Shown here one piece after another: positions 1,982 through 62,715 of a stretch of DNA of 64,000 nucleotides; position 1 is the first letter of the stretch, and each line of letters opens with the position of its first letter. This stretch comes from Gleimia sp. 6138-11-ORH1 (GTDB taxonomy: Bacteria; Actinomycetota; Actinomycetes; Actinomycetales; Actinomycetaceae). The notes beneath the pieces were generated by a model that saw nothing but the letters and a program-made list of their open reading frames with translations, had not been told where the DNA came from and did not search any database. The stretch covers positions 62,001 through 126,000 of the forward strand of contig NZ_JANUXV010000002.1 of assembly GCF_024814355.1 (NCBI RefSeq), given 5' to 3'. A program made the translations under genes and the position numbers.

Positions 1982-2330
1982 AGGAAATCCTTCCCTATGT
2001 TTCACGGGTTGGCGCGCCGCACCGGTTGCCCCTCTCTGAATCCATTCCAGGGTACGCATAGCGCTTTATAGCGTGTGGTTATGGGTCACATCGGACAAAC
2101 TGGTGCAACTATTCATATTACGCGGTTTAGGGGGCTTTTTCCAGAGTGTTTTCGCTGGGCGTGCGCGAACTCACGTGATTTCTTTATTTTGCTTTTCAGG
2201 TGCTTCATTTTCCGCTGGTGGCAGGGTGGTTTTTCTTTCCCGAGGGCGGTTTTGTTGCGTTCCGGATTTGTGTGTCGGTTTTGTTAGCTGCGGTAGTGTG
2301 TTTATTTACAGGGTTTTGTGGTTTTGGGTA
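1982..2330. other. rpoB upstream region, no gene
   Basis: Noncoding stretch between rpoB and the rplL terminator. It is strongly T/G-rich on the plus strand and I see no convincing ORF. On the minus strand a TATAAA at about 2063-2068 could be a -10 element for rpoB, but I cannot pair it with a good -35. A CGAGGGCG octamer lies at 2241-2248 (see findings). Confidence 0.6.
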
Positions 2331-8703: not shown

Positions 8704-9456
8704 TTAAGAAAGTTTCTTAACCTGATCGAAGCTGAGTTCAATTGGGGTTTCGCGTTCGAATACCATGATAGAAACGGTGAGTTTACGGTGTGCCGGGTCA
8801 ATTTCCGTAACCGAGGCTTCCATCGATTCGAAAGGTCCGTCCATAACTGTGACAGATTCGCCAATTTCGAAAGTAATCGCGGGGGAGGTGAGAATTTCTG
8901 CAGAAACAGCCTTCTTCAGTTCCTTAGCTTCCCACATTGGGGCCAGCAGATTAACTACTTCATCAGTAGTCAGAGGTACTGGGTTCTGTGCGTCTCCAAC
9001 GAAACCAAGTACTGCTGGAGTGTCTTTAACTACTCGCCAGGAAGTTTCGTTCATGATTGCACGCACCAGCACGTAGCCAGGAACGCGCGGGCGTTCTACA
9101 GTTTTCTTACCAGCCTTAGTTAGTTCAGTTACCGTTTCCATGGGAACTTCGGCTTCGAAAATATAGTTTTCCATATTCTGCGTTTGGATACGCTGTTCCA
9201 AGTTGGCTTTCACTCGGCGTTCGTGGCCAGAGTAAGTGTGGATAACGTACCAATCCCCCAGCTGTTCTTCCAGTTCAGCGCGTTTTGCAGTTAGGAAATC
9301 AACTTCAGCCGCGTCTACTGCTTCCGTAGCGTCTGCTGCTTCTGCCGCGTCAGCCACTTCTGTTTCCGCTGCTTCTACTTCACGGGTTTCGAGGGCGGTT
9401 TCCACCACTTCCTCCACAGTTTCAGTGGTTTCTTCAGAGTTCACCTGTTCGCTCAC
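8704..9456 (-). CDS. nusG: Transcription elongation and antitermination factor NusG
   Basis: Binds RNA polymerase and couples transcription to translation or Rho. 250 residues. Residues 1-65 form an acidic Glu/Ala-rich extension typical of actinobacteria. The NGN domain begins at about 67 (WYVIHTYSGHERRV) and contains PRVPGYVLVRA. The KOW domain is near 190-225 (IGESVTVMDGPFESM). It lies before rplK; two hairpins separate it from secE, so it may have its own promoter. Confidence 0.96.
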   Translation of the reverse strand: MSEQVNSEETTETVEEVVETALETREVEAAETEVADAAEAADATEAVDAAEVDFLTAKRAELEEQLGDWYVIHTYSGHERRVKANLEQRIQTQNMENYIFEAEVPMETVTELTKAGKKTVERPRVPGYVLVRAIMNETSWRVVKDTPAVLGFVGDAQNPVPLTTDEVVNLLAPMWEAKELKKAVSAEILTSPAITFEIGESVTVMDGPFESMEASVTEIDPAHRKLTVSIMVFERETPIELSFDQVKKLS

Positions 9457-9925: not shown

Positions 9926-10167
9926 ACGCATTTAGTTCACAGTCAGTAACTTTTAAGCCACTTACAACAAACTGCGTGCTTAATGAGTCTAAACGATTTT
10001 AACTAACAAATACAACTCCAAAGCAAATAACGTGATCTGCACAACTGAGGATTCCAAATTAGATTCAACAGGCGCCCTCGGAAAAGATCTGAATCCTAAA
10101 TTCCAAAAAGTAAGACGAAAAGATAAATCTCCGAAAAAAATAACCAGTTTCAGGCACACTAATATAT

Positions 10168-15561: not shown

Positions 15562-16818
15562 TTATTCGGCGGCTGAATTATCTAGTTTGTGATCATTTTG
15601 CGGGCGAAGCTGACCGGTGAGCAGAACTGAAATGAATACCGGTAGCACTAACGCCCCTAAAGCCCGTTGATAACCCACGTATTCAGCTAAATATCCGATA
15701 AGCGCTGGCCCGGCAATGGCAGCGCTGAAGCTAATCGTACTCATCACTGAAAGCCGAGAGGCGCTTCTAAGTGGGTCAGCAGCTAAAACTGAAGCGCTTA
15801 ACGGGTATCCTAAAGCGACGCCAACTCCCCAAAAAGCCGCTCCAAATAAAGCCAGCCAATACACTGGGCTAAAGGCTAGGAACACTACCCCAACTAGTCC
15901 GAAAATCAATAGGGCACGTAAGAGTTTATCGACCGAGTAAAAACTTTGCAGGTGCGGTGAAAGAAGCCGCGTTGCAGTTAAAGCTGTCAAAAAAATCGCT
16001 AAAGAAGCAGTTCCATACCAAACGGGCAAACTGAAACCATCTACCATCGCCAGTGCCAGCCAATCTGCTGCGGCCCCTTCCGTAATTTCAATACCAAAAA
16101 CCAACACTCCAATTAGTAGGGTACGTTTTTCTTTCCAAGCGTCACTACTTTTTACCACCTGATTAGTTGAGGTGGAATTGCCAGAAGTTTGTTCCCGGTG
16201 CTGATCGGTTTCTTTCACCGTCCCTCTGCCCGTCAGTTTTGCAACTGTTGCGGCAGGCAGAAAATGCGTGAAACTCCAAACTGCCAGTAGCGCAGAAAAA
16301 CAGATTACCGCAGTAATGTGCGTGTAAATAGAAAAGCCGTTACGTAGTGAGCCGACGGCTAAAAGCGCGCCACTGACCGTGCCAATTGAAAAAGCAGCGT
16401 GAAACCAAGCCATCCGTGGTTTCCGCAGCTTCACTTCCACGTATCCGCCCTCGGTATTGATAGCTGCGTTAAGTAAGGAAGCGCCGGTATTGGCAGTTAA
16501 AAGGCAGCCTACCAGCAGCGGAACGGAGCTTGCTTGCAAAGCCCCCAGCACACCTAATAAGCCGACTGTCCAAAGCGTGAATCCGATAGTCCCGATGCGA
16601 GTGGGCCCAAAACGCGTCACTAGCGGACCGGCGGCGGGAATCGCCAGCATAGCTCCCAACGCGGCAGAAATCAGTAGGTTTCCCATTTGCGTGGGAGTGA
16701 ACTGAAAATGGTCGCGTAAGGCGGGCAGTTCTGAAAGAAAAGTGGCGTGCACTAACCCCAGCACATAAAAGATTAAGAGAGTTGCTCGGGTTGCTGCATT
16801 AACTGCCTGATTCTTCAT
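15562..16818 (-). CDS. Major facilitator superfamily transporter
   Basis: 418-residue integral membrane protein with about 12 hydrophobic segments in two halves, split by a charged cytoplasmic loop near residues 195-235 (KLTGRGTVKETDQHREQ). It has the N-terminal MFS layout with VTRFGPTRIG after helix 2. Sequence style (ITEGAAADWLAL, WGVGVALGYPLSASV) resembles the sugar/unknown-substrate MFS group related to FucP and YbjJ. Substrate unknown. It stands alone on the minus strand. Confidence 0.8.
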   Translation of the reverse strand: MKNQAVNAATRATLLIFYVLGLVHATFLSELPALRDHFQFTPTQMGNLLISAALGAMLAIPAAGPLVTRFGPTRIGTIGFTLWTVGLLGVLGALQASSVPLLVGCLLTANTGASLLNAAINTEGGYVEVKLRKPRMAWFHAAFSIGTVSGALLAVGSLRNGFSIYTHITAVICFSALLAVWSFTHFLPAATVAKLTGRGTVKETDQHREQTSGNSTSTNQVVKSSDAWKEKRTLLIGVLVFGIEITEGAAADWLALAMVDGFSLPVWYGTASLAIFLTALTATRLLSPHLQSFYSVDKLLRALLIFGLVGVVFLAFSPVYWLALFGAAFWGVGVALGYPLSASVLAADPLRSASRLSVMSTISFSAAIAGPALIGYLAEYVGYQRALGALVLPVFISVLLTGQLRPQNDHKLDNSAAE

Positions 16819-18375: not shown

Positions 18376-19239
18376 TTAATAACCTGCCAGTTTCTCTAAC
18401 TGCGCGATCCGCTGATCCATAGGCGGGTGGGTAGACATAAGCGAACGTAAAGCTCCTCTAAACGGGTTAGCAATCATCATTGCCGCCACATTAGACCGCG
18501 TGGGCGTGCGTTGCAACGGATTATTCTTCACTCCCGCTTCAATCTTTCGTAATGCTGAGGCTAAAGCTAAAGGGTCTTCGGTAAGCATAGCCCCATCGTA
18601 GTCAGCTTCCAGCTCTCGACTACGTGAAATGCCCATCTGCAAAATAGTAGCAGCTAAGGGAGCTAAAAAGATTAACGCCAAAGACCCCAGTAGTCCCAGC
18701 GGATTGCTCTGGCGGTTATCTCCGCGCATCACCCCAAATGACATTATCTGCGCTACCGCTGTGATGACACTGGCCATTCCCGCCGCTAACGTAGAGGTGA
18801 GAATATCCCGGTTGTAAACGTGCATTAACTCATGTCCCAAAACGCCGCGCATTTCCCGTTCGTTCAGAAGATGAATAATCCCCTCAGTGCAACAAACCGC
18901 CGCGTTCTTCGGGTTGCGTCCCGTAGCAAATGCGTTTGGAGTCATCGAAGGAGAAAGATACAGTCGGGGCATTGGCTGACCGGCTCGTTCAGCCAGCTCC
19001 CCCACCATCTGATACATCCACGGGGCTTCTTCAGGGGAAACAGGGCGAGCGTTCATTGAACGTAACGCTAACTTATCTGAGTTCCAGTAGGTGTAAAAGT
19101 TCATTCCCAACCCCATCACCACTGAAAGGTAAAAGGGGGCGCTGGAACGAGTTCCGAAAGAAATTAGCGCACCGATAGCCACAACTAAACCCCACATCGC
19201 CGCGAATAGCAGGGCTGTTTTCATTGTATTCTTACCCAT
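18376..19239 (-). CDS. htpX: Membrane zinc metalloprotease HtpX
   Basis: Quality-control protease of the cytoplasmic membrane that cleaves damaged membrane proteins. 287 residues. Two N-terminal transmembrane helices (about 5-45), the zinc motif in GHELMHVYNRD, two further helices, the third zinc ligand in SRELEADYDGA and the C-terminal HPPMDQRIAQLE. GGAAGGAG lies 4 nt before the ATG. Confidence 0.95.
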   Translation of the reverse strand: MGKNTMKTALLFAAMWGLVVAIGALISFGTRSSAPFYLSVVMGLGMNFYTYWNSDKLALRSMNARPVSPEEAPWMYQMVGELAERAGQPMPRLYLSPSMTPNAFATGRNPKNAAVCCTEGIIHLLNEREMRGVLGHELMHVYNRDILTSTLAAGMASVITAVAQIMSFGVMRGDNRQSNPLGLLGSLALIFLAPLAATILQMGISRSRELEADYDGAMLTEDPLALASALRKIEAGVKNNPLQRTPTRSNVAAMMIANPFRGALRSLMSTHPPMDQRIAQLEKLAGY

Positions 19240-19365: not shown

Positions 19366-19393
19366 CGAGGGCGGAGTTTTACCCCCGCCCTCG
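19366..19393 (-). terminator. Terminator after fprA built from an inverted CGAGGGCG pair
   Basis: 9-bp stem CGAGGGCGG (19366-19374) with CCGCCCTCG (19385-19393) and a 10-nt loop, 27 nt past the fprA stop. Both arms contain the overrepresented octamer described in the findings. Confidence 0.75.
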
Positions 19394-19419: not shown

Positions 19420-20850
19420 CTATTCTCCGGGCTGTCCAACTAAATCTATTTCGGAAATATCTTCTCCCCGAGAAATCGCTGTCATGGCTTTACGGGAAGC
19501 AACTTTAATACGTTCGCGTGGCCCACGCCCGCCTTCCACTTCACCGTACTGGGCACCCAGCTCTTCTTCAAATGCGTTTAGAAGCTCCCACCCTTCCCAG
19601 GTGGTGTAGGCTACGCCGCGTTCTTCAAGGAGCTTAACCATTGCCTCATGTCCAACTGCTTCGGTAGTTGCCTGCAGTTTCCCAGCCTGCGCGTCAGCTA
19701 CCAGGTTAGCGATAGTTTCTTGCGCATCAGACTTAGTGGAACCGATTAGCCCTACCGGGCCGCGTTTAACCCAACCGGTAGCGTAAATGCCGGTGAGCGG
19801 CTGACCATTTTCGCCCAGGACTCGCCCAGCTTCGTTTGGAATCACGCCGCGCTGCTGATCGAAAGGAATACCTTCAATAGGTGAAGAGAAGTAGCCGATA
19901 GCTCGGTAAACTGCCTGCACTGGGGTTTCTACGAATTCGCCGGTTCCTTCCACGGACCCATCCCCTACTAAGCGGGTACGTTCAGTCTTTAGCGCACGCA
20001 CATTCCCGTTTTCATCTGCCAAGATTTCAACGGGTGAATGGAACATGTGAATGTGAATCCGGCGGCTGGCAGTGTGTTCTTCCTGCATAGCGTAGTTAGT
20101 GAGCGCCTTAACAACCTGTTTGGTCTGGTTGGAAGACGCGATTGCTTTTTCGGATCCTTCGTCAAAGTCAAAATCTTCTTCGTAAACAATCACGTCTACA
20201 TCTGGCTGGTGTCCCAGTTCGCGTAGTTCCAGTGGAGTGAACTTCACTTGGGCGGGGCCGCGGCGACCAAAAACGTGTACGTCAGTTACGGGGCTCTTAC
20301 GCAGTCCTTCGGCTACGTTTTCAGGGATTTCGGTAACGAGGAGGTCCTCAACGTGTTTAGCTAGGACTCGGGCCACGTCTAAGGCTACGTTTCCAACGCC
20401 CAAAACCGCGATTTCTTTGGCTTCTAAAGGCCATTCGCGCGGGTAGTCAGGGTGTGCGTCGTACCAGGAAACAAAGTCAGCGGCGCCGTAACACTGCGGG
20501 AGGTCTACGCCAGGAATGTCTAGGGGCGCATCTTTATCTGATCCGGTGGCGAAGATTACCGCGTCATAGTGGGCATGGAGATCTTCTACGGTAATGTCTG
20601 TGCCTACGTTTACGTTGCCCAATAAGCGGATATCTCCGCGTTGGAGGATCTTATAGAGGGCTACGATGATTTGTTTAATACGTGGGTGATCGGGAGCCAC
20701 TCCGTAACGAACTAGGCCGTAGGGTGCAGGTAAGCGTTCAAATAGGTCAATATCTACATCCAGTCCTGATTTAGAAAGAATATCTGAAGCATAGATGCCT
20801 GCTGGACCAGCGCCGATTACAGCAACTGAGAGTGGTCGCGTCTGGGTCAC
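19420..20850 (-). CDS. fprA: Ferredoxin-NADP+ reductase, FprA (adrenodoxin reductase) type
   Basis: FAD enzyme passing electrons between NADPH and ferredoxin. 476 residues, close to mycobacterial FprA. Seen are the N-terminal FAD site VIGAGPAGIYA, YGVAPDHPRIK, the NADP site LGVGNVALDVAR, the HVFGRRGPAQVKFTPLELREL segment and the C-terminal GWVKRGPVGLIGSTKSDA. The start is GTG with GGGGG 4 nt upstream. It appears monocistronic. The physiological ferredoxin partner is not in this window. Confidence 0.94.
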   Translation of the reverse strand: MTQTRPLSVAVIGAGPAGIYASDILSKSGLDVDIDLFERLPAPYGLVRYGVAPDHPRIKQIIVALYKILQRGDIRLLGNVNVGTDITVEDLHAHYDAVIFATGSDKDAPLDIPGVDLPQCYGAADFVSWYDAHPDYPREWPLEAKEIAVLGVGNVALDVARVLAKHVEDLLVTEIPENVAEGLRKSPVTDVHVFGRRGPAQVKFTPLELRELGHQPDVDVIVYEEDFDFDEGSEKAIASSNQTKQVVKALTNYAMQEEHTASRRIHIHMFHSPVEILADENGNVRALKTERTRLVGDGSVEGTGEFVETPVQAVYRAIGYFSSPIEGIPFDQQRGVIPNEAGRVLGENGQPLTGIYATGWVKRGPVGLIGSTKSDAQETIANLVADAQAGKLQATTEAVGHEAMVKLLEERGVAYTTWEGWELLNAFEEELGAQYGEVEGGRGPRERIKVASRKAMTAISRGEDISEIDLVGQPGE

Positions 20851-22145: not shown

Positions 22146-23714
22146 TTACGGGAGAAGTACTACTACATTGCCGAGTAGTTCCAGAACTGGGCCGGGGAAT
22201 ACGCCAAGTAGCACAGTTAAAACTGCTGCCATCATGATAGCTACGAAACTATAGCCTTCGGAGCGAATCACGACGGTATTTTCAGATGGTTCAGTTAAGA
22301 ACATGAGGACTACTAAACGGAAGTAGTAGAACGCGGTCACTGCCGAACAAGCCAATGCTAAGGCTACTAGCCAAATCATTCCACCTTCAATACCGGCTGC
22401 GAATACTACGAACTTTCCAATGAAACCACCGGTGAGGGGGATACCTGCAAAAGAAAGCAGGAAAATCAAGAAAGCGGTAGCCAAGGCCGGTGATTTGCGT
22501 CCCAGTCCTGCCCAACGTTCTAAGGAAGTTGCTTCTCCGGTGACGTTGCCACCGTTATCAACTGAACGCACTAAAGTAACTACACCGAAGGCGCCGATAG
22601 TGGCGATCCCGTAGGTGAGTAGGTAGAAGATAATTGCTCCCGCAGAGTGTGCGGTAACGGCAAATAAACCAATCATCACGAAACCAGCGTGAGCAATGGA
22701 AGAGTAGGCTAAAAGACGTTTCACATCAGTTTGTACTAACCCAACAAAAGTACCCACTAAGAGCGTGAGAATCACGATGCCAACTAAAGCGTAGTTAAAC
22801 TCCCACTCAAGTGGTCCCAAAATGGTCAGGTAAATGCGGATTAAAGCTCCAAAAGCAGCTACTTTAACTGCGGCTGCCATGAAACCGGTGATTGGGGTGG
22901 GGGCTCCTTGGTAAACGTCTGGAGTCCAGGCGTGGAAAGGTGCAGCGCCAATCTTAAACAGTAAGCCGATTAGCATCAATAGTCCGCCCACAGTGCCAAA
23001 GTAAATCATTGGGGATCCGGGAAGAATCCGAGCGATTGCGGAAAGCTGCAAAGAGGAGGTTGCCCCGTATAAGAATGCGCCGCCTAAGAGCAGGAAGGTG
23101 GAAGCAAAAGCACCCAGGACGAAGTATTTCAAAGCAGCTTCTTGGGAAAGCTGCCGCCGCCGCCGCGCGGTGGCTACCATCACGTAAAGTGGCAGGGACA
23201 TTACTTCGAGGGCGATAAACAGAGCGATCAGCGTATTTGCAGCTGGGAATACCATCATCCCCCCTAAGCTAAAGAGCATTAGAGTGTAGATTTCCGTACG
23301 CTGGTAACCTTTTTCGATTGAAAGGTCCTCATCGGCTGAACCGGGACGGTCAGCTGGTTGAGCTGCAAAAGCACCATCTTTAAGTTCACTGCGGTCAGTA
23401 ACTACCAAGATTGCGATTAGTGCTAATAGGAGTAGCACGGCTTGCACTGTCAGGGTAAGTGGGTCTTCGATGTATTCGATGGTGGCAGTGGGGTTGGTGA
23501 ATCCTTCATTTAGCCTGGAGGCAACTACCAGGATTGCCCCGATAATGGTGGCTAATGAAAGTACCAGTTGCACGGTGCGACGACCCTTTGCAGGGACAAA
23601 AGCCTCTACCAAGACAGATACTACGGCACCTGCGAATACGATGAGGATAGGTAGCAGTGAAAGCCAAGGAATTTCTGGTGTCTGGAGTGGGGCAAATGGA
23701 ACGAGGAAGTTCAC
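22146..23714 (-). CDS. nuoN: NADH-quinone oxidoreductase subunit N
   Basis: Antiporter-like proton-pumping membrane subunit of Complex I. 522 residues with about 14 hydrophobic segments. It shows EVMSLPLYVMVA with the conserved Glu, KYFVLGAFASTFLLLG, FKIGAAPFHAWTPDVYQGAPTPITGF and DVKRLLAYSSIAHAGF. The GTG start overlaps the nuoM stop by 4 nt (GTGA), giving translational coupling. It is followed closely by the polyprenyl synthase. Confidence 0.95.
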   Translation of the reverse strand: MNFLVPFAPLQTPEIPWLSLLPILIVFAGAVVSVLVEAFVPAKGRRTVQLVLSLATIIGAILVVASRLNEGFTNPTATIEYIEDPLTLTVQAVLLLLALIAILVVTDRSELKDGAFAAQPADRPGSADEDLSIEKGYQRTEIYTLMLFSLGGMMVFPAANTLIALFIALEVMSLPLYVMVATARRRRQLSQEAALKYFVLGAFASTFLLLGGAFLYGATSSLQLSAIARILPGSPMIYFGTVGGLLMLIGLLFKIGAAPFHAWTPDVYQGAPTPITGFMAAAVKVAAFGALIRIYLTILGPLEWEFNYALVGIVILTLLVGTFVGLVQTDVKRLLAYSSIAHAGFVMIGLFAVTAHSAGAIIFYLLTYGIATIGAFGVVTLVRSVDNGGNVTGEATSLERWAGLGRKSPALATAFLIFLLSFAGIPLTGGFIGKFVVFAAGIEGGMIWLVALALACSAVTAFYYFRLVVLMFLTEPSENTVVIRSEGYSFVAIMMAAVLTVLLGVFPGPVLELLGNVVVLLP

Positions 23715-30542: not shown

Positions 30543-33121
30543 CGAGTCACCTCCGAGTTAGCTGCGATAGTTACTACAGAGCCATGCTTGGCTCCCAAAG
30601 TTTCATTTACGAATGATCCGGCAGAACACTGCGGTACCCAAACCACCCCAGCTGGTAAATCAGCGATTACTAAAGGTAGTTGAATCATTCCTTGAGCAGT
30701 CGAAACTGCTACAGAAGCGCCCTCGCTAAGCCCTAAAGCAGCAGCGCTTTCAGCTGCCAAACGAGCAACTGGTTTCCGAGCCGTACCAGCCAACTCAGTT
30801 GCCCCAGCTTGTAATAGCCCAGCGTCCAACATTGGTTTATGGGTAGCCAGGATCGCTTCAGAAGCTGCCAGCTGCGCCACCGGAGTAGAAACAGCTGCTG
30901 GTTTCTCACAGCGTACCCCCCGGTACCCCATCAGCTGGTTGATTTCCGCATGAGTGGACTTTAAAGTCTCTAAGCCCAACTCGTACCCCAGCTCAACTGC
31001 CAGACGATTTAGAACATCACGGTCAGTTAAAGCACGGGTAGACAGCGCCTGCCCGAACGGACGTAAACGACCTTCCCAGTTAATGAAAGTACCGTTCTTT
31101 TCAGCTACCGGAGCAACTGGGAAAACTACGTCCGCCAACTCTGTGGCAGCAGTGCGATTAACTTCTAAAGAAACTACGAACTTAGCATTTTCTAGGGCGC
31201 GCAGGAACTCACTTGGGTTCGGCATATCTCGGTGGTCAACACCCCCGGTGATAATCGCATCAAAAACCTCAGCCGCTGCCTCAGCAACGATATTCTTCGT
31301 ACAGCGAGCAGGTTCCACTGGAAGCGTAGTATTCCAAAGCGCTTCAACTTCTGCGCGGGCAGCCGTATCAGCCACCGGACGACCAAATGGCAGCAAGAGA
31401 GGGTTCAAACCAGCGTCTAAACCACCGCGTTCGCCGGCGCGACGAGGAATCCACGCTAACCGAGCTCCAGTTCGCTCAGCCAGCTGAGCCACTGCAGTGT
31501 ACAGACCCGGAGTATCCGCAGCCCTTTCACCCACCAGAATAATTCCCGATGCCAGTTCCTCAGCTAAAGAACCAGAAATACCAGCTAATACGCTAGCTTC
31601 CTCACCTGGGACTGCGCGAAGCAAATCAGCAGAGAGTTTACGCGTCGAATTTGAGGTAAATGGAGCAACCACGCTGACCTTAACCTTGCCAGCAGTCACC
31701 CCCTTACGCAAACGGAGGAAAACTGAACCAATCTCATCTTCAGCTTCTAAACCAACCAGCAGAACTCGGCCAGCACTTTCCAACTGCTGGTAGGTTACAT
31801 CCAAACCTTTCCCAGCTACGTAAGCTCCCAAGAACTTAGATTCCTCACAGGAGGTAAAACGCACCCGCTGATCAATTTGGTTAGTCCCTAAAACAACACG
31901 CGCAAACTTAGACCAAGCATAGGCGTCTTCAACCGTCAAACGACCGCCGGGCAGGAAAATAGACTTTCCAGATTCCTTAGCGGCAGCTAAACCAGCAGCA
32001 GCCACCTGCAACGCTTCCGACCAGGAAGTTTCCACCAGTTTCCCGTCTTTACGCACCAGAGGTCGTTGCAAACGGTTTTCCGTAGTGGCCCACTGGTAGG
32101 CGAAACGATCCTTATCAGTGATCCATTCTTCATTAACCTTCGCATCTTCACCAGCTAAACGGCGAACCACTTCACCACGGCGAATATCAACGCGAAGCGC
32201 AGAACCTGAAGCATCATGTTCAGTAACCGATGGAGTAGAAACCAAGTCGAAAGGACGCCCTCGGAAACGGTAAGAAGCAGCAGTCAAAGCCCCAACTGGA
32301 CAAATCTGAATAGTATTGCCAGAGAAATAAGAGGCAAACGGACGACCAGTTTCATCCAGTTCAGCATCTCCAGTAGGGCCACCAGTTAGTGAACCAGCAA
32401 CCCCAGGTTTACCGTACGGACCAGCACAACCAGCCGCAGCCGTTAAATCATGACCCGAAGGGTTCAGCTCAGCATTGTAAAAACCCAGTACCTGCGTATC
32501 AAAAGTACCAATCTGTTCACCCATGAAATAGTGGTGATCGGTAGGAGCAGTCCCCGCGCCACGACCTTGCAGATCGATGAACGCGTCACCGGCGATCTCT
32601 TTAGAAAAACGCACGCAACGCTGGCAGAGAATGCAGCGCTCGCGGTCAAGCATAATCTGGGTGGAGAGTTTAATAGGCTTTGCGAAAGTACGCTTTGCAT
32701 CAACGAAGCGGCTCTTTTCGCGTCCTTCACTCATCGCCTGATTTTGGAGCGGACATTCACCACCTTTGTCACAGATAGGACAGTCCAGTGGGTGGTTAAT
32801 CAGCAGGAATTCCATGATTCCCTTCTGTGCCTTTTCCGCCACCTCAGAAGTTCTCTGCGTCTTAACTTCCATACCTTCCATTACGGTCATGGTGCAGGAA
32901 GTTTGAGGTTTTGGCATCGGGCGAACCACGCCCTCGCGGTCTGGCATAGCCACTTCAACTAGACATTGGCGGCAAGCACCAACAGGCTTTAGCAGCGGGT
33001 GGTCACAAAAACGTGGAATCCGAATGCCCACGCTTTCGGCGGCACGAATGATGAGGGTTCCTGAGGGAACGCTAACCGGGGTGCCGTCAATGGTTAGTTT
33101 AACCATATTTGGGGTGCTCAT
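30539..33121 (-). CDS. nuoG: NADH-quinone oxidoreductase subunit G
   Basis: Largest peripheral-arm subunit, 860 residues. The N-terminal region carries the [2Fe-2S] ligands in CDHPLLKPVGACRQCLVEV, then the HPLDCPICDKGGECPLQ and CILCQRCVRFSKEIAGDAF cluster sites and CPVGALT. The C-terminal two thirds is a molybdopterin-oxidoreductase-like fold (SCEESKFLGAYVAGKG, FINWEGRLRPFGQA). It overlaps nuoF and nuoH by 4 nt each. Two CGAGGGCG octamers lie inside (30718, 32929). Confidence 0.95.
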   Translation of the reverse strand: MSTPNMVKLTIDGTPVSVPSGTLIIRAAESVGIRIPRFCDHPLLKPVGACRQCLVEVAMPDREGVVRPMPKPQTSCTMTVMEGMEVKTQRTSEVAEKAQKGIMEFLLINHPLDCPICDKGGECPLQNQAMSEGREKSRFVDAKRTFAKPIKLSTQIMLDRERCILCQRCVRFSKEIAGDAFIDLQGRGAGTAPTDHHYFMGEQIGTFDTQVLGFYNAELNPSGHDLTAAAGCAGPYGKPGVAGSLTGGPTGDAELDETGRPFASYFSGNTIQICPVGALTAASYRFRGRPFDLVSTPSVTEHDASGSALRVDIRRGEVVRRLAGEDAKVNEEWITDKDRFAYQWATTENRLQRPLVRKDGKLVETSWSEALQVAAAGLAAAKESGKSIFLPGGRLTVEDAYAWSKFARVVLGTNQIDQRVRFTSCEESKFLGAYVAGKGLDVTYQQLESAGRVLLVGLEAEDEIGSVFLRLRKGVTAGKVKVSVVAPFTSNSTRKLSADLLRAVPGEEASVLAGISGSLAEELASGIILVGERAADTPGLYTAVAQLAERTGARLAWIPRRAGERGGLDAGLNPLLLPFGRPVADTAARAEVEALWNTTLPVEPARCTKNIVAEAAAEVFDAIITGGVDHRDMPNPSEFLRALENAKFVVSLEVNRTAATELADVVFPVAPVAEKNGTFINWEGRLRPFGQALSTRALTDRDVLNRLAVELGYELGLETLKSTHAEINQLMGYRGVRCEKPAAVSTPVAQLAASEAILATHKPMLDAGLLQAGATELAGTARKPVARLAAESAAALGLSEGASVAVSTAQGMIQLPLVIADLPAGVVWVPQCSAGSFVNETLGAKHGSVVTIAANSEVTR

Positions 33122-39523: not shown

Positions 39524-39889
39524 AGTTCCCTCTCAATGTGGGCTGCTTTTACTCATATCCCACCGGATTTTGAGCACAGCTGACCCAGGTCTTACGTATC
39601 TACCCTACCTACCCATGATTAACTTGCGCTAAAGCATCTAGATTTGCTTGAAATTCTTGGAAAAATCACGGTGGAGCTTAGGTTCTAATCCAGCGTATTA
39701 AGAAAGGGAGATGTTACGTATTTAAATCGGCATAAATATTCGTGAAACCGCGCACACTAAAGATTTTTCATTTCCTACCCAGCGCAAACTTATCCAGCAA
39801 CACACGGCACAAACTTATCCACAGCTACAAACAACGCCCTCGGAAATGAAATATGCAAACTGAAAAGAGATTCTCAACTCTGCCAACAG
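39524..39889. other. Upstream region of the reductase-nuo operon, with DnaA-box-like sites
   Basis: Noncoding. It must hold the promoter for the long respiratory operon. A perfect DnaA-box consensus TTATCCACA is at 39815-39823 and a near match TTATCCAGC 25 bp away at 39790-39798 in the same orientation, both in the context CAAACTTATCCA. A CGAGGGCG octamer (minus) is at 39835-39842. No terminator is seen after menG. Confidence 0.55.
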
Positions 39890-42264: not shown

Positions 42265-43383
42265 TTATCCTGCTGGTTTTTCTGCTGGTTTTTCGGTTTT
42301 GTCTTCAGCTGGTTTCTCCACCGGTTTCGGTTCCGGTTTGGGCACCAGGGTGAGGACTTCGTTTTTGTCAATTAGTTTATCCACGTGTGAGATTGTGGCT
42401 ACGTAGGTGCCCGGCTCGGCTACTGCTCCAGCTTGACAGTTACTCCATACTTTCGCATCCCAGGTGAGATTCATTTTCCAACTCTTATTGGGATTTAAAA
42501 GCAGTGGGATTTGTGCTTCTTCGGCGGCGCAGTTCAGGCTCTCATAAACGTTTACATCACCTGATTTTAGGCTGATTCCAAATCTATTTGCGCCGCCTTC
42601 TAAATAGCAGCTACGAGCAGACTTATTCTTAATATCCACTGTCACGATCCAATGACTACCAACTTGTAAGGTGGTGGCATTTGAGCTGGTGGCAATTTCC
42701 AGGTCTCCCGGCTGACATACTGGCACTGCTAGGGTATCTTCTATTTCGGCTACGGTGGTAGCGGAAGCTTGCATGTTCTTTGTAACTACCTGAAACTGCT
42801 GGTAGATGTAATATACGGCAATTAGCAAGGCAACTAGCAAAATAGCCGCGCCCACGGATTTCCACCAGAAGGAAAAACCCTCCCGACCGGTTGGCTGCTT
42901 CGAGGTAGTGCTCCGCGGTGGCTTATGCCCGTCTCGCCTACTTTTCGCAGCTTGGGCGGATTTTCCTTCCCCTGCCCCTTTCTTTCCCGCCCCCATTTGC
43001 ACAGTGCGAGTTTTAGTTGGGGTTTCTGCGCTTTGTCTACCGGAGGTTCCGGGAGTTTTCTTCCGCTGATTAGGTGGGTTTGGCTGAGCACCCTCTCTTG
43101 GGTTTCTTCTGCGGCCAGCTCCTGTGGATTGAGTTCGCGCTGGCGGGCGTTTGCCTTTTCCGCTTCCTTTGGGGTTGGTTGCGGGAGTTTGTTTTCTGCC
43201 TGTGCGTAGGCTTCGTTCCAGTTCAGTCCGGATATCTTCCCATGATTCTCCGGTTAGCCATTCAGCGTTGTCAGCAGAAGTTCTTTTTCTTTCTCGAGGG
43301 CGGCGGTTAAATCTTTCCACATCATCCATATCGCGCATACTCTTATCCTTTGGAAGCTCGTTAGCACTGATTTTATCGTTCAA
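42265..43383 (-). CDS. Basic, disordered single-pass membrane protein of unknown function
   Basis: Not recognised. 372 residues. About 1-165 are hydrophilic and very rich in Arg, Lys, Pro, Gly and Thr (RPRERKRTSAD, PRSTTSKQPTGRE), probably cytoplasmic and disordered. One membrane helix lies near 172-192 (SVGAAILLVALLIAVYYIY). The outer part, about 200-345, has four cysteines (VCQPGD, SCYLEGG, LNCAAEE, SNCQAG), suggesting two disulfides in a beta-rich domain. The tail is a Lys/Pro/Glu repeat (EKPAE, DKTEKPAEKPAG). It overlaps the DUF3180-type gene by 4 nt, so it belongs to the folate block transcript. Confidence 0.75.
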   Translation of the reverse strand: MNDKISANELPKDKSMRDMDDVERFNRRPRERKRTSADNAEWLTGESWEDIRTELERSLRTGRKQTPATNPKGSGKGKRPPARTQSTGAGRRRNPREGAQPNPPNQRKKTPGTSGRQSAETPTKTRTVQMGAGKKGAGEGKSAQAAKSRRDGHKPPRSTTSKQPTGREGFSFWWKSVGAAILLVALLIAVYYIYQQFQVVTKNMQASATTVAEIEDTLAVPVCQPGDLEIATSSNATTLQVGSHWIVTVDIKNKSARSCYLEGGANRFGISLKSGDVNVYESLNCAAEEAQIPLLLNPNKSWKMNLTWDAKVWSNCQAGAVAEPGTYVATISHVDKLIDKNEVLTLVPKPEPKPVEKPAEDKTEKPAEKPAG

Positions 43384-43871: not shown

Positions 43872-45809
43872 TTACTCGTCGTCTGTTAAGGCGTCTAATG
43901 AAGTCACTGTCCAGGGGGAAAACCCGAAGTCATCAGTGGTTTTTTCTTCATTGCGCGGAGTGACTGGTGTTGCTCCGGTGGGCGCAGGGCGAAGAATCTG
44001 CCTGCGTTTTAAGCGGGAAGTAAAGTTGGTGCTTTCTGGATCTGAGTTTGTTTCCGCATTTTCTGTAAAGTAAGTTTGCTGTTCTGCAGCGGTTTTTGCA
44101 TTTTCTTCAGTATCTGCTGGTTGTTGCTGCGCAGCTTGGTTAAGTTGGTCTTCTACAATTCGCGGTTCAGGCGGGGTAACCACTTTTTTCCAAGAGGGCA
44201 TTTTCCTTGATTGGGTGGGGGTTTCCGGAACGATACCGTGAATTAGGTCTTCAAAATCTGGTTGTTGTGGGACTGGTTTAGCCTCTGCAACCGGTTTTTG
44301 TATTTCAGTGACGGGTTTTGTCACTTCAATACGCGGTTTTGGTTCTTCAACAGTAGGTTTTTTTGCCTCAACTTCAAAGATGCGTGGTTCTTCTGGAGTA
44401 TTTACCGGTTCTGGTTTAGCTTCAATTTTCTCTGGAATTACCGGGGCTACTGGGGCTACTGGGGTTTGCTGGTAGTCGCGTAAACGTGGTTTCGGTAATT
44501 CGGGTGCTGCTGAAATTTTTGGAGCTACGTTTTCTGGCTTATTTTTTCGAGCTGCGGCGATTCTTTCTTGTGCTTCCTTCAGTTCTTTTTCGATCCGGAA
44601 ACGACGAATTTCCCATTCTCGGTCAATCTGGTGTTTGGTAAGTAACCATTCTGTTTGCATTCGGGCGCGTTTGCCGGCCAGTTCCGCAAAAATGGGAGAT
44701 TCACTTTCAGTTTCAGAGGTATCTAAGTAGGTGCGTCGAATGCTACCAGTGTCTACGGTAGCTTCAGTGGGTGTTTCAAGTGGTTTATTTGGCGCTAGGG
44801 TGCGCGGTTTAGTCTCCGGCACTGGTGTTTCTACTACCGCTACCGGTTTTGAGAAAGCTCCGGCGAGGGCGGCTTCAACCCATTCTTCCGCTAGTTGTTC
44901 AACTGTCTGATCTAAAACTTGCTTTACTAGTACCTCTACCCGGCCGTGCCGACCAACGCTAGCTTGCGGATCGATTTGATTCCACGGTTGGAGGACAAAT
45001 GCTCGTTCATGTGCACGGGGGTGTGGCAAGGTGAGTGTTTCTGTCTCGCAGTGCAGTTGCCCGTAATCGAGGATGTCCAGATCAAGTACGCGCGCTTCCC
45101 ACCGAGTTTTCCGAACCCGCCCTGCTTTAGCTTCCAAACGATGAAGATTAGCTAATAGTTGCAGGGGGCTTAAGGTGGTTTTTATTTCAATAACTGCGTT
45201 GAAATAGTCTGGTTGGGGTGCTTGTTGGGGTTGCAGCACCGGCGCTGTTTTGAACAGTCCAGACACTGCGGTAACAGCAATTTCTGCAGTGTTATCCAGG
45301 TTGATAATTGTCTGTGCTAATGTACGCGGAGCGTCACCTAGATTTGCTCCTAAAGCAATTACTGCGGTGACTGCTTCGGCTGGTTTTTGGGCAAGATTAA
45401 CTTCGGTAACTTTGGGAAGGGGGTTTTGCGCTAACCAGGCTTTGGTACGCCGAATATTCAATGAGATATCGCTAAACTGTACTTCTAATGGTGCCTGGGG
45501 TTTGTGAACGTGTACATTAACAGCCGCTACCGGGGGGTAGTCCAATACTTTTCTGGCGATAGTTTCCGCCAGTGATTCCAGAAGATTTACCGGGGTTCCC
45601 TGCAAGATGTTAGCAACATCTTTAGCTACCTGCGAATAATCCACTGTGTAGTAAAGGTCATCGGTGGCAGCGGCTTGGCGAATATCTACTTCCAGCACTA
45701 TATCGACTGAAAAATGCTGTCCCTGAGTTTTCTCCTGAGGGTAGACTCCGTGTAAGCCAAAAGCGGTGATCCCTTTGATAGTAATCAAATCATAGACTGG
45801 CTGTTCCAA
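43872..45809 (-). CDS. folK: Bifunctional dihydroneopterin aldolase / HPPK (FolB-FolK) with long disordered tail
   Basis: Two consecutive folate-pathway enzymes in one chain of about 645 residues. FolB spans about 5-125 (ITAFGLHGVYPQEKTQGQ, NLLESLAETIARKVL). FolK spans about 145-310 (VIALGANLGDAPRTL, YFNAVIEIKT, RWEARVLDLDILDYG, PHPRAHERAFVLQPW). The remaining ~325 residues are low-complexity Pro/Glu/Lys with one charged helical stretch near 385-440 (RRFRIEKELKEAQERIAAARK). I prefer the TTG at 45809 because GGGGG lies 4 nt before it; an ATG at 45824 is possible. It lies in the folE-folP-folBK order typical of actinobacteria. Confidence 0.9.
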   Translation of the reverse strand: MEQPVYDLITIKGITAFGLHGVYPQEKTQGQHFSVDIVLEVDIRQAAATDDLYYTVDYSQVAKDVANILQGTPVNLLESLAETIARKVLDYPPVAAVNVHVHKPQAPLEVQFSDISLNIRRTKAWLAQNPLPKVTEVNLAQKPAEAVTAVIALGANLGDAPRTLAQTIINLDNTAEIAVTAVSGLFKTAPVLQPQQAPQPDYFNAVIEIKTTLSPLQLLANLHRLEAKAGRVRKTRWEARVLDLDILDYGQLHCETETLTLPHPRAHERAFVLQPWNQIDPQASVGRHGRVEVLVKQVLDQTVEQLAEEWVEAALAGAFSKPVAVVETPVPETKPRTLAPNKPLETPTEATVDTGSIRRTYLDTSETESESPIFAELAGKRARMQTEWLLTKHQIDREWEIRRFRIEKELKEAQERIAAARKNKPENVAPKISAAPELPKPRLRDYQQTPVAPVAPVIPEKIEAKPEPVNTPEEPRIFEVEAKKPTVEEPKPRIEVTKPVTEIQKPVAEAKPVPQQPDFEDLIHGIVPETPTQSRKMPSWKKVVTPPEPRIVEDQLNQAAQQQPADTEENAKTAAEQQTYFTENAETNSDPESTNFTSRLKRRQILRPAPTGATPVTPRNEEKTTDDFGFSPWTVTSLDALTDDE

Positions 45810-47389: not shown

Positions 47390-49474
47390 TCAGTGGCCTT
47401 CCCCTGCTTGATTTGGATCAGCTTCATGAGGGACTTCAGTAATCGGATTTTCAGCTTGTTCAGTTAGACTATCTGTCTCGGCTTTCGGTAGTTCCCCAAA
47501 GAATGCTCCCTCTACGGCTGCATCTGCCTGATAGTTCCAAACGGGGCGTTCTGGTTGTTTAACTAAAGCGGTGAAGATCTCAGCCAGGTCATGTTCTAAG
47601 AGAGTTTCTTCATCCAATAGACGCTGCGCTAAGGTGTCTAATACTTTGCGGTTACGGGAGAGGATTTCCCAGGCTTCACGCATAGCGTTATCTAACAGGA
47701 CTCTGACTTCTTTATCCACGGCAGCTGCGGTTTCTGGTGACATGGGGTGAGTTTCTCTACTTCCCCCAGCTGGCCCGAAGGGATTGCTATCTGCTTTCCC
47801 AAGTTTCGCCAGCCCTAAGGATGAGGACATACCGTAGTCAGCCACAAGTGCGTAAGCTGTGGATGTTACCTTCTCAATGTCATTAGAAGCTCCGGTGGAA
47901 GGATCTTGGAACACCAGTTCTTCGGCTACACGACCACCTAAACCGTAAACCAGATCATCTAATAATTGGTTACGAGTTTTTGAATAGCGATCCTCTGTTG
48001 GCATTACCATGGTGTAGCCTAAAGCCCGCCCTCGAGGAAGAATAGTCACTTTGGTAACTGGAGCTGAATATCTTGAAGCTGCCGCGCAGATTGCGTGTCC
48101 AGCTTCGTGGTATGCAGTTACTGCCCGGTCGTGTTCGTTCATCACTCGAGTTCGCTTTTGCGGGCCTGCCAACACACGGTCAATAGCTTCATCAATTGCC
48201 CGCATATCAATCAAATCTGCGTGGCTGCGGGCCGTGAGCAAAGCCGCTTCATTAAGTACGTTTGCTAAGTCTGCACCGGTGAAACCGGGGGTGCGTTTCG
48301 CGATCAGTTGCAGATCCACATCTGAAGTTAAGGGCTTACCCTGAGCGTGTACGCGAAGAATCGCTTCACGCCCCTTCATATCGGGTGCATCAACTGGGAT
48401 CTGTCGATCAAAACGACCGGGCCGAAGCAGGGCTGAGTCCAAAACGTCTGGACGGTTAGTGGCGGCGATTACCAGGAGGTTAGTGGTCGCATCAAAACCG
48501 TCCATTTCGACTAGCATCTGGTTAAGGGTTTGGTCGCGTTCATCTGAACCGCCCCCGTAGCCACTGCCACGATGACGTCCAACTGCGTCGATTTCATCAA
48601 TGAAGATAATCGCCGGAGCTGCCTTTTTTGCCATATCGAAAAGGTCGCGCACGCGAGAAGCGCCCATACCGACGTAAAGTTCCATAAACTCAGAACCAGA
48701 TACTGAGAAGAAAGGCACTTCAGCTTCTCCGGCAACAGCTTTCGCTAAAAGAGTTTTACCAGTTCCCGGAGGCCCGTATAAAAGTACCCCGCGAGGCACT
48801 TTAGCGCCGACTTTCTGATAGCGTTCAGCATTAGCTAAAAAGTTCTTAATTTCTTCAAGTTCTTCTACTGCTTCATCAGCTCCGGCTACGTCAGTAAATC
48901 GTACGTTAGGGCGTTCTTTGTTGAAGTCACGTTTCTTCTTCCCCCCTAACATTCCTCCGCCAACGCCGTTAAAGCGCGTCATGAAGAAGTAGAAAATACC
49001 CACCAAAATAAACATTGGGAGCATCAGGGTAAACAGGTTCATCAAAAATGATGGCTGCGGATTAGAAACGTCATAACCCTGCTTAAGTTTCTTATCCGAG
49101 ATGATTTTAAGAACATCTGGACCCTGGTCTTGAGAGAATGTGAAAGCCACAAAAGTTCCATGATTAACTTCACGGTCTTCTGGGTGAGTCGGCTTATGCA
49201 CATACGCTTTATCTAGTTTCAAGGTGGCAAAACGAGTGGTATCGTTTACGCTCACTGCTTGCACAGTGTCACCTTTTAATAGTTCAAGCGCCTCAGAAGT
49301 TTTTATAACTGATGGTTGAAATAGAGCCCACAAAGCCCACAGGGTAATGCTAAATAATGCTAACGGGATTAGCAGTATCCCAATTTTCCGAGAATCTAGC
49401 TTCTTTTTTTCTTCCGAAGGCTTCCCTTCAGGAGTAGATCCTGAGGACGGAGAATTTTGCGGTTTCTTAGCCAC
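47390..49474 (-). CDS. ftsH: ATP-dependent membrane zinc protease FtsH
   Basis: Membrane-anchored AAA+ protease degrading short-lived and misassembled proteins. 694 residues. Two transmembrane helices (about 31-52 and 145-166) flank an extracellular domain. The AAA module has Walker [14 protein letters not shown], Walker [13 protein letters not shown] and the second region of homology [20 protein letters not shown]. The zinc site is in YHEAGHAI. The start is GTG. The Glu/Pro-rich tail (about 655-694) is variable in the family. It lies in the conserved hpt-ftsH-folE order. Confidence 0.96.
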
Positions 49475-50048: not shown

Positions 50049-51225
50049 CTTTAACCTCCTGTAGATGTTTCTTAGTTACTTTGTTATTGTCTCTTAAACC
50101 ACTGACAAGTTCCAGCACGATTCGCTGGTGAACATTTTTCTTCCATACTTTACCGTGTTTCGTTTTCTCAATCCGGTCATTACGACGCGCCTGCCAGCCG
50201 TTTGGTAAAGAAATTGGTCCTTGCCCTCTCCAATGCGTCACCAGCTGATCGAGTTCCTGCAAATGTTTAGCTGTCAGCATCGCCTTAGACCGCTGGGCAA
50301 ATAATAGTTTCCACAATCGCATCCGAATTGGTTTTGCTTCTTTCACGAGGGCGGAAACCAGCACTTCCCCCTCAGCTTCAAACTCGCCAGTTAAGAAACG
50401 TTCTTGCGCACAAGTGTCCAAATAGGTGGCGTCTTCTTCGGCTAGTTGGGCGCTGCGCCCTAGGGAAATGACTACGTCTTGGCCGAGGACTTGAGAAAGC
50501 TGCGGGATGATTAAGTGTCGTAATGCCACCCTTGGCAGTGGCTGCCCAGCGGCAGTTTGCCAGGGACCATCTAACTGATTAGTGGGGTCAGCCACTACTT
50601 GTAAAGCCAGCTGCTGGCAAAAGTCCTCTGTGTCTGCACGGCGAACGGACGCTAAAAGTGGCCGGCAAAAATGCAGTTCTGTGCCTGCAGCCAGCTTTTC
50701 CTTCCGCTGAGGACGAATCCCCGCCAACGCACGAGTCCCAGCGCCACGGGCTAAACTAAGTAGCACTGTTTCTGCCTGGTCATCTAAGGTGTGTCCTAAG
50801 AGGACTCCCACGGTTTGCCCGGGAAAATGTTTCACCGCGTAATCGCGAAAAGCCTGATACCGAGCTTCCCGCGCTGCCGCTTCTACTGCCCCAACTGGAT
50901 TAACTTCTACTGCGATGATTTCTGCAGGAATTTCTAAGGTAGCTAACTGGGTGGCGGTGGAAGTTGCTTCAAGAGCAGATTCAGCTCGTAGCTGGTGGTC
51001 GATGATAACGGCATGAAGCGGCTTTCCCGCGCGGCTGAGCAAATCCGCGGTAGCTACCGTCAAAGCCAGTGAGTCAGCGCCCCCGGAACAACCTACTAGC
51101 CAGGTGGTGATTGCCTGAGTGGAGGCTGCCCGAAGTAGGTTCTTAACCGCTAAGGAAACCGCTCTAACTCCCTGCGTGGGTTTTGTTCCAACCAGCTGCG
51201 ATGCTTTTGAAAAGGGAGCCCTCAT
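50035..51225 (-). CDS. tilS: tRNA(Ile)-lysidine synthetase
   Basis: Modifies C34 of the CAU-anticodon tRNA-Ile to lysidine using ATP and lysine. 396 residues. The PP-loop SGGADSLAL is at about 44-52, then [30 protein letters not shown] and a C-terminal substrate-binding region. It overlaps dacB by 4 nt and hpt by 14 nt, so the three are coupled. An octamer CGAGGGCG lies at 50346. Confidence 0.93.
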
Positions 51226-53253: not shown

Positions 53254-53562
53254 ATATTTCCCAAATCATCAGAACTTCAGTTCACCACGCTAAAGCGTCG
53301 CTGCGCGTTCAATTTCAGCTTCTAACTGGGCGGTGGAAAACTCGAGCAATCAGGCTCTTTTACTACCTTAACTGCGGGTAATCCTAACCGTCTCGCACCG
53401 AAAGGGAACACCCCGCAAACCCATACTACTACCGAAATAAAACGAGGCCTGTTGGGACTAGTTGAAGCTCTCGTCAACGCCCTCGAAAAATCAAAGTTTT
53501 AACTAACTAAGCAAAGTTGCCTACAAACTCTCAAATTCCCCATAAATAGGCTCAGCGGCAAG
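53254..53562. other. Region without a supported gene; possible decayed coding remnants
   Basis: No complete ORF. On the plus strand a frame of about 60 codons ending TAA at about 53502 reads GLLGLVEALVNALEKSKF at its end but has no start codon. On the minus strand the segment around 53290-53420 reads RRLGLPAVKVVKEP and, one frame over, FSTAQLEAEIERAATL to a TAG. These look like frameshifted protein fragments but I do not recognise a family. A CGAGGGCG octamer (minus) is at 53478-53485. Confidence 0.35.
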
Positions 53563-53598: not shown

Positions 53599-54708
53599 AT
53601 GAAAGTAGAATTTGATCTAAAAGAAGCATTCGGGGAAACTCCCGTCCCTCGCCCAGGATACTGGACTAAAGATATTCTGGGGGACGGTTTCTCGGCTCAA
53701 GCAATCCAGCTTCTACCCGACGAAGATGGCGAAAACATCGCTACCTTAGTCCGCCACGAAGCAGCTAATGACCCCCACGCCTTTGCGGGGACCCCGTCTG
53801 AACCTAAATTCAGAGCACTTTACATTCACGGGTGGAATGACTATTTCTATCAGCCCGAACTAGCCCGCCACATTGCCTTAGCGGGCGGCCAGTTCTACGC
53901 CTTAGATCTGCGTAAATACGGGCGTTCTTTACGTCCAGGGCAAATCTTTGGGTGGGTGACAGACCTTTCAGAATATGATGAAGAAATCTCCGAAGCCTTA
54001 GATATTATCGGAGACGATCTGCCGATTCTTCTGATGGCACACTCTACCGGCGGATTAACCACCGTTCTTTTTGCCAACAACTACCCGGGACGTTTCGCGG
54101 GTGTTTGGTTGAATTCTCCTTGGCTGGAACTACACCCCTCTGCGCTGATGCGGTATGCAACTGGGCAGCTAGTGGAAGTTGTTACTCCGCTTGATCCCCA
54201 CATGGTGATGCCGGTGGGTGGGAACAATTTCTTTAGTGAATCATTAGACGGGTGGCAAGACCATGAGGGTGAGCTTCCCGAAGAACTGCTCCCCTATGCT
54301 GACGATCCTTCTGTTACCGGTTGGAAACCGAATCGCCTGTGGAAAGGTGATCGGGTCACGTTAGCTGGTTGGTTGCACGCAGTTTCGGTGGGACACCGCC
54401 AGGTGGCTGCTGGGTTGAATTTGGATTGCCCGGTGATTTGTTTCGCTTCTACAGCTTCTTTCGAGGGCGAAACATGGACTCCTGAAGTTCGCTACCGCGA
54501 TACGGTTTTAGATGTTGATGCAATGGTTTACCGGGCGGGTACATTAGGGCCTGATGTAACTATCCGCCGTTTGCGTGGGATACATGATTTAACCTTGTCT
54601 TTCCCACCGGTAAGACAGGAATTATGGGCAGCTACGCATCGTTGGTTACAGAGTGTCTTTCCTGATAATCCTATTTCTTTAAGTGATATCCCCTTAGCTC
54701 CACGCTGA
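53599..54708 (+). CDS. Alpha/beta hydrolase (serine hydrolase)
   Basis: 369-residue enzyme of unknown substrate, probably cytoplasmic. Motifs: oxyanion segment LYIHGWNDYFYQPELA, LDLRKYGRSLRPGQ, nucleophile elbow MAHSTGGLTT (Ser replaces nothing; the usual GHSMGG becomes AHSTGG) and a catalytic His probably in RGIHDLTLS. The layout with a ~70-residue N-terminal region resembles actinobacterial lysophospholipase-like hydrolases. No signal peptide. It is monocistronic between two terminators. Confidence 0.8.
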   Translation: MKVEFDLKEAFGETPVPRPGYWTKDILGDGFSAQAIQLLPDEDGENIATLVRHEAANDPHAFAGTPSEPKFRALYIHGWNDYFYQPELARHIALAGGQFYALDLRKYGRSLRPGQIFGWVTDLSEYDEEISEALDIIGDDLPILLMAHSTGGLTTVLFANNYPGRFAGVWLNSPWLELHPSALMRYATGQLVEVVTPLDPHMVMPVGGNNFFSESLDGWQDHEGELPEELLPYADDPSVTGWKPNRLWKGDRVTLAGWLHAVSVGHRQVAAGLNLDCPVICFASTASFEGETWTPEVRYRDTVLDVDAMVYRAGTLGPDVTIRRLRGIHDLTLSFPPVRQELWAATHRWLQSVFPDNPISLSDIPLAPR

Positions 54709-62501: not shown

Positions 62502-62715
62502 ACTTTCCTCCTATTTTCTATTTCTAGATTAGGGGGCTGGCCAGTAGTTTTCCTCTTTGTTCACCATTAGGGGAATTTCCCGAGGGCGTTAGTGAAAGCT
62601 AGCTATTTTTCTGCGCACTGCCCCTCCGGAGCGTGTTTCCCGCTGGGTAGGTATTCTTTCCAGGGCGTCAGCTAAGGCTGGGGAGTGCGGATTTACGGTT
62701 TTTCAGCTGGTAGTT

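Follow-up and report, generated by a model that had tools for sequence, protein, structure and literature searches.

A short word, CGAGGGCG, is repeated throughout the genome of this member of the Actinomycetaceae in a way that is probably best explained by a DNA-uptake-sequence-like function, that is, as a label of self-DNA in its genus (to this reading we assign a probability of about 0.55). The reading is favoured because the over-representation of the word beyond codon usage, the balance of its strands, its surplus between genes, its inverted pairs, its conservation and its dialects all resemble what is found for uptake sequences. The window in which the word was analysed is a stretch of 64,000 nucleotides, belonging to a genome (G000) of 1,672,227 bases in 9 contigs with a completeness of 97.5%. 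The window holds 19 copies, against 1.99 ± 1.54 expected and a maximum of 6 in 100 dinucleotide shuffles. These copies are given below, together with the inverted pair that two of them form and the genes on either side of that pair; G005 and G008 are the two nearest relatives of G000 by FprA.

2241..2248, plus strand, copy of CGAGGGCG, intergenic
9390..9397, plus strand, copy of CGAGGGCG, identical in the relative G005
10073..10080, minus strand, copy of CGAGGGCG, intergenic
16446..16453, minus strand, copy of CGAGGGCG
18376..19239, minus strand, M48 peptidase, the next gene in the same direction as fprA, starting 126 nt past the pair
19366..19393, inverted pair, CGAGGGCG-12 nt-CGCCCTCG, one of 11 in the genome
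19366..19373, plus strand, left arm of the CGAGGGCG inverted pair, identical in G008
19386..19393, minus strand, right arm of the CGAGGGCG inverted pair, identical in G008
19420..20850, minus strand, fprA-like pyridine-nucleotide-disulphide oxidoreductase, 476 aa, Pyr_redox_2 domain
23207..23214, plus strand, copy of CGAGGGCG, identical in G008
30718..30725, minus strand, copy of CGAGGGCG, identical in G008, flanks diverged
32256..32263, minus strand, copy of CGAGGGCG, changed in G008
32929..32936, minus strand, copy of CGAGGGCG, changed in G008
39835..39842, minus strand, copy of CGAGGGCG, intergenic
43295..43302, plus strand, copy of CGAGGGCG, identical in G008, flanks diverged
44864..44871, plus strand, copy of CGAGGGCG, changed in G008
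48027..48034, minus strand, copy of CGAGGGCG, changed in G008
50346..50353, plus strand, copy of CGAGGGCG, identical in G008
53478..53485, minus strand, copy of CGAGGGCG, intergenic, identical in G008
54462..54469, plus strand, copy of CGAGGGCG, identical in G008
61601..61608, minus strand, copy of CGAGGGCG
62581..62588, plus strand, copy of CGAGGGCG, intergenic

In the whole genome the word occurs 702 times, 344 forward and 358 reverse, so that the strands are balanced, and the reversed word used as a control occurs 105 times (57 and 48). Within 244 kb sampled from the genome, CGAGGGCG ranks first among the over-represented octamers, with 89 copies against 3.5 expected from an order-3 Markov chain. 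According to a rough gene caller, on which the split of these 89 sites rests, 65 are situated within predicted genes (33 along the gene and 32 against it) and 24 between genes, in a sample whose non-coding share is about 15% (p 0.002). This abundance is not reproduced by the composition of the genes, since in 180 kb the genes carry 55 copies against 4.0 when their synonymous codons are shuffled, and the intergenic part of the same 180 kb carries 15 against 0.3 expected from a Markov chain. The octamer is also embedded in a wider context. Among 88 sites, T has been found at -4 in 56/88 and at -3 in 62/88, C at -1 in 48, G at +8 in 38 and T at +9 in 44, which gives an extended motif of the form TT-n-C/T-CGAGGGCG-G/T-T; outside -4 to +9 little is common to these sites, a weak signal at positions +16 to +18 excepted. 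The T flank is comparable in G005, G008 and G015 and weaker in G036 and G021, and it was looked for and not seen in G029 and G003. As for the direction of replication, for which the sign of the GC skew was taken as a proxy (origins being unmapped and the skew near zero in some stretches), the copies are divided 51/50 in 11 stretches of G000 and 40/45 in 19 stretches of G021.

The inverted pair at 19366-19393 is located 26 nt past the stop codon of the gene called fprA, a name that comes from an earlier note made from the sequence only; the M48 peptidase that follows is presumably HtpX-like. It had been claimed there that both arms of a terminator contain the octamer and that this is the one place in the window where the word occurs as an inverted pair, and both statements are confirmed: the arms are exact octamers at 19366-19373 (+) and 19386-19393 (-) separated by 12 nt, and no other two copies in the window start closer than 673 nt, which leaves this pair as the only close one there. 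On the strand of the fprA transcript, the pair forms a 12-bp stem with a 6-nt loop, with a folding energy of -30.9 kcal/mol over 81 nt and a z of -4.4, and none of 200 shuffles was equally stable. Intrinsic terminators require a U-tract. A GC-rich stem past the stop codon, which is one feature of such terminators, is present at fprA, but the U-tract was absent directly 3' of the stem on this strand, where AAAUAAUU is found instead. The word terminator in the original prediction thus agrees with the strength of the stem and with its place after the stop, and not with the bases that follow it.

The existence of other inverted pairs in the genome, and their location just after stop codons, had been proposed as the check that could count against the prediction, and its outcome does not refute it. 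When a pair is defined as two octamers with 3-30 nt between them and the expectation is derived from the density of sites, G000 contains 11 +- pairs against 2.06 expected (Poisson p 1.1e-5), 4 -+ pairs against 2.06 (not significant) and 4 direct pairs against 4.13. Nine of the 11 +- pairs overlap no open reading frame of at least 60 codons kept by the gene caller, another (L008) overlaps only a frame of 69 codons, and the remaining one (L002) is placed inside an open frame of 524 codons, 74 nt past a stop. The ten pairs outside long frames all start 9-32 nt past the nearest stop codon of an adjacent gene. Because Ts precede CGAGGGCG, the stem of a +- pair has T on its 5' side and A on its 3' side whichever strand is read, and only two of the 11 pairs (L008, and L011 on one strand) have five or more U among the eight bases that follow the arm. 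The same excess is stronger in the two nearest relatives, with 16 +- pairs against 2.40 expected and 10 -+ pairs in G005, and 13 +- pairs against 2.19 and 29 -+ pairs against 2.2 in G008, while direct pairs number 2 in each, against 4.8 and 4.4 expected. Five of the 29 -+ pairs of G008 were inspected (L155-L159, e.g., L155:4855), and all five are identical pairs of the form CGCCCTCG-TAAAAATTTTCC-CGAGGGCG within a longer repeated element. Among 11 genomes tested from the set of 59, the +- excess is significant in these three (G000, G005, and G008), and no significant excess was found in G001, G002, G003, G009, G010, G015, G029, and G036, for which the expectations rest on rounded genome lengths. 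G015 and G036 have the strongest repeats, yet they are without +- excess, and several high-GC members of the order have more direct than inverted pairs (83 vs 20 in G046 and 73 vs 20 in G053).

The region 3' of fprA was compared in 11 genomes belonging to the genus; in seven of them the stretch taken was longer. An exact CGAGGGCG pair is present in G000, G008, and G005; in G003 the hairpin has one exact arm and another matching at 7/8 bases; and in G002 the arm of the hairpin matches CGAGGACG at 7/8 bases and is followed by UUUA. An ordinary hairpin with a U-run takes this place in G004 and G010, a hairpin with a weak U-run in G001 and one with no clear U-run in G009, and in G006 and G007 a clear hairpin was not seen within 160 nt. 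Most fprA orthologues of the genus therefore keep a hairpin at this spot, and a function in 3'-end formation is likely there on these comparisons, with termination in the absence of a U-tract, Rho-dependent termination and protection of the end as candidate mechanisms.

Conservation of single sites has been observed as well. In G008, the nearest relative, 8 of the 12 aligned sites of the window are identical (37 kb, 78% identity), and control words made of the same letters are kept in 19/185 cases in the same alignment; at 30718 and 43295 the word is retained despite differing flanks. In G005, 2 of 11 sites are kept and a further one is masked by a gap in the alignment, and in both G003 and G001 0 of 4 are kept. 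Similar words are used in related genera. In whole-genome counts with the reversed word as control, CGAGGACG occurs 1741 times (reversed 51) and CGAGGGCG 1559 times (reversed 67) in the 1.9 Mb of G036; CGAGGGCG occurs 1638 times (reversed 81) in G015; CGAGGACG 1196 times (reversed 107) in G003; CGAGGGCG 1091 times (reversed 104) and CGAGGACG 863 times (reversed 98) in G002; and CGAGGCCG 2452 times (reversed 291) in G019. Codon shuffles, which covered G000, 32 relatives and 12 titled loci with one to five stretches each except for G000, back the enrichment in G036, G015, G003, G002, G029, and G021, and that of CGAGGCCG in G019, Actinomyces bouchesdurhonensis (L072), Actinomyces sp. HPA0247 (L086), and Actinomyces sp. 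ph3 (L068). CGAGGGCG, CGAGGACG, and CGAGGCCG are thus over-used in different genera, a pattern that resembles the dialects of uptake sequences as far as word counts can tell. A protein tree of 30 rows was discarded, since two of them (G017 and G032) seem to be read in a wrong frame and another (G022) is short. On the other hand, G016 has 11 copies of CGAGGGCG and 11 of the reversed word, G033 has 55 and 42, and G030 has 229 and 297, with 217 of CGAGGACG against 115; a clear enrichment of any of the three words was looked for and not found in G016 and G033, and was found only for CGAGGACG in G030. In most high-GC relatives (e.g., G012, G013, and G018) CGAGGGCG shows no clear excess in genes over codon shuffles. 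The count of 2737 in G012 was accordingly rejected as evidence, since codon usage explains much of the abundance of the octamer in several such relatives. Over-represented words were also surveyed in G000, 33 relatives and 16 titled loci (again one to five stretches each except for G000). CGACGACG, CGACGGCG, and CGACGCCG are enriched in several Actinomycetaceae as well; they were discarded as dialects because they are about twofold enriched in the stretches of Cellulomonas, Georgenia, and Arthrobacter too.

Several other explanations have been considered. Codon usage or mutation bias as the source of the word would agree with the fact that 48 of the 65 intragenic sites fall in GAG-GGC or GCC-CTC frames, and with the high-GC relatives that stay mostly near codon expectation; however, the synonymous-codon shuffles refute codon usage as the cause in G000, and with the intergenic surplus and the T-rich flank they make this explanation hardly credible. 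Sites of the Chi and KOPS type are short, over-represented in and between genes and variable among lineages, and both are skewed with replication. CGAGGGCG might likewise be a hotspot of recombination or a site that organises the chromosome, comparable to Chi, to KOPS or to the target of a nucleoid protein, and be maintained by a DNA-binding protein of the cell with no link to uptake; in fact it has the brevity, over-representation and lineage variability of such sites in a genome that encodes an AdnAB/RecB-type helicase-nuclease (UvrD and PD-(D/E)XK domains). This is unlikely, though, in view of the even division of the copies by GC-skew sign as a proxy, and a polar Chi or KOPS site has been set aside because the strand skew is absent; furthermore, inverted pairs are in excess past stops while direct pairs are not, and AdnAB is not known to have a Chi site.

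The two remaining alternatives concern the hairpins. CGAGGGCG could be mainly a hairpin element, made of REP-like or terminator units that a transposase, or selection for 3' ends, has spread, with the single copies as their relics. The location of ten of the 11 inverted pairs at gene ends, the longer repeated element around the identical -+ pairs of G008 and the hairpin kept 3' of fprA in most orthologues of the genus would all fit, but the +- pairs take in merely 22 of the 702 copies, the intragenic sites run along and against genes alike in numbers far exceeding codon shuffles, and the 88 aligned sites share little beyond -4 to +9, which together make such an origin improbable. An origin from REP units only has been set aside for G000, where the sampled sites are mostly intragenic, while G008 does have the longer repeat that bears pairs. 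Closer to the case of fprA itself is the possibility that the pair acts as a genuine terminator of transcription devoid of a U-tail, its make-up from octamers being incidental. The strong stem 26 nt past the stop, the hairpins with a U-run at the same place in G004 and G010 and with a weak one in G001, and the G002 hairpin followed by UUUA speak in its favour, and it deserves serious if somewhat doubtful consideration, given that there is no U-tract at fprA, that two of the 11 pairs only are followed by at least 5/8 U, that the pairs at loci L001 and L003 are directly preceded, as judged by eye, by an ordinary hairpin of their own, and that the T flank accompanies the motif across the sampled sites as a whole, few of which are paired.

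The comparison with known uptake systems has two sides. CGAGGGCG resembles the DUS of Neisseriaceae in being a short non-palindromic word with hundreds to thousands of copies on balanced strands, in occurring in and between genes, in forming inverted pairs at gene ends and in having related words in related species, as DUS are described in the parts of the sources consulted (PMC3630211, PMC1852404). It differs from DUS in belonging to another phylum, in being another word and in its 8-bp core, and also in the smaller proportion of paired sites, with 11 +- pairs (3-30 nt) for 702 sites here and 226 +- pairs (≤10 nt) for 1,892 DUS in N. meningitidis Z2491, a count taken from a portion of PMC1852404. 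According to the same portion, the extended uptake motif of Neisseria and Pasteurellaceae begins with As, so that a +- pair has an A-tail 5' and a T-tail 3', and this A-start has served as an argument for the maintenance of their pairs as terminators (PMC1852404). The 5' flank of CGAGGGCG is T and not A, and a U-tail is therefore not generated. With the USS of Pasteurellaceae, CGAGGGCG shares a core with an extended AT-rich flank, and the presence of both +- and -+ pairs with a moderate bias (50 and 25 in H. influenzae, 11 and 4 here), although the tails are reversed with respect to the A-tail 5' and T-tail 3' of USS pairs, as far as the part consulted of that source goes (PMC1852404); moreover, since the host is monoderm, its uptake machinery would have to differ from that of the USS system. 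The biology shared with Neisseria that the original prediction invoked is consequently upheld for the genome-wide, strand-balanced and over-represented word and for its inverted pairs past stops; it does not extend to the T-flanked pairs, which are opposite to those of Neisseria and Pasteurellaceae, and the uptake role is putative. Another comparison, for the machinery, is offered by the actinobacterium Micrococcus luteus, which transforms with Flp pili and has homologues of ComEA and ComEC (PMC6370729). G000 resembles it in its comEA-comEC and Tad/Flp-like genes and may differ in its word, as no uptake sequence is mentioned for M. luteus in the part consulted of that paper (PMC6370729).

If CGAGGGCG is indeed a label of self-DNA, a surface receptor of the natural-transformation machinery would recognise DNA that bears the word and favour its uptake. 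This receptor would be a pilin or a pilus-associated protein of a Tad/Flp-like pilus, acting with ComEA and ComEC. Transformation would then retain and spread the word on both strands, in and between genes, by molecular drive. Copies that come to lie close together in inverted orientation would form strong hairpins, tolerated or selected just past stop codons, where they could end transcripts or protect their 3' ends; the fprA hairpin would in this manner have arisen as a by-product and found a use at a 3' end. The gene content of G000 is compatible with such a scheme. Its comEA product has SLBB and HHH domains, and its comEC (L190:10722-12191) codes for 489 aa with a Competence domain and no other Pfam domain, and is followed by a gene of 337 aa that we take to be holA. 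ComEC has been found in 57/59 genomes, including some that lack a CGAGGGCG excess (G016 and G030) or barely have one (G033), and its presence is therefore non-discriminating and supports the possibility only. Two clusters of G000 each carry an ATPase of the T2SSE family; one of them adds a TadE-like protein, and the other a DUF4244 peptide that can be read as a Flp-like candidate, and the membrane proteins that adjoin both look like candidate Tad-like components. As regards the size of ComEC, which is short in G000, the open frames around its domain measure 509-601 aa in the 10 genomes of the genus where it was matched, and 700-1200 aa in many other relatives.

A broader proposal, which we hold with a little less than even confidence, is that Actinomycetaceae possess their own code for the uptake of self-DNA, with genus dialects of the form CGAGG(G/A/C)CG, that this code would be read by a Tad/Flp apparatus and not by a type IV pilin of the ComP kind, that it would be without precedent both beyond Neisseriaceae and Pasteurellaceae and among Gram-positive lineages, and that its inverted pairs would act as U-less hairpins marking 3' ends. 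Selective uptake of self-DNA has been presented, in the available portion of one article, as characteristic of Neisseriaceae and Pasteurellaceae (PMC4906244), and a census of terminators in thousands of genomes describes, in the portion available, uptake words in the terminators of these two families (PMC13020248). U-less hairpins like the CGAGGGCG pairs might escape such a census. No actinobacterial uptake word has been found in the titles and abstract openings of the matching papers within a set of open-licence PMC literature, which is weak evidence of absence; as a word, CGAGGGCG was encountered in that set only in work on mouse cells that is unrelated by title, and a motif-discovery paper (PMC5217627) does not name Actinobacteria, Actinomyces, or Arcanobacterium. 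If true, such an independent case from a monoderm phylum, the third after those two families, would be of biological significance because it would put to the test the origin of uptake words by receptor preference and drive. It would also provide a handle on gene exchange among Actinomycetaceae, with the dialect predicting which species can exchange DNA. For RNA biology, the question is raised of whether a hairpin with U on its 5' side and A on its 3' side brings transcripts to an end in these bacteria.

Finally, some minor observations can be added. Between convergent genes of the window, at 18328-18369, there is a strong ordinary terminator-like hairpin of 18 pairs with a T-rich stretch after it, which suggests that octamer-free terminators are also used by this genome. 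CGAGGCCG falls below its reversed control in G000 and its two nearest relatives, as if avoided (49 vs 159 in G000, 7 vs 73 in G005, and 17 vs 184 in G008). The discarded CGACGACG is enriched in the moderate-GC Arcanobacterium phocae (L079; 15 vs 1.9), Ancrocorticia populi (L080; 8 vs 0.4), and G026 (11 vs 0.4), where it is possibly another word of this sort or else a product of codon repeats. In G029 (L058, L162, and L163) CGAGGGGG is over-used (20 vs 1.2), so that the seventh base may be variable in that genus. In 36 kb of G003 (L153 and L154), ACTGTGAG/CTCACAGT (15 vs 0.5) and AAACACTC/GAGTGTTT (16 vs 0.7) are strongly over-represented.
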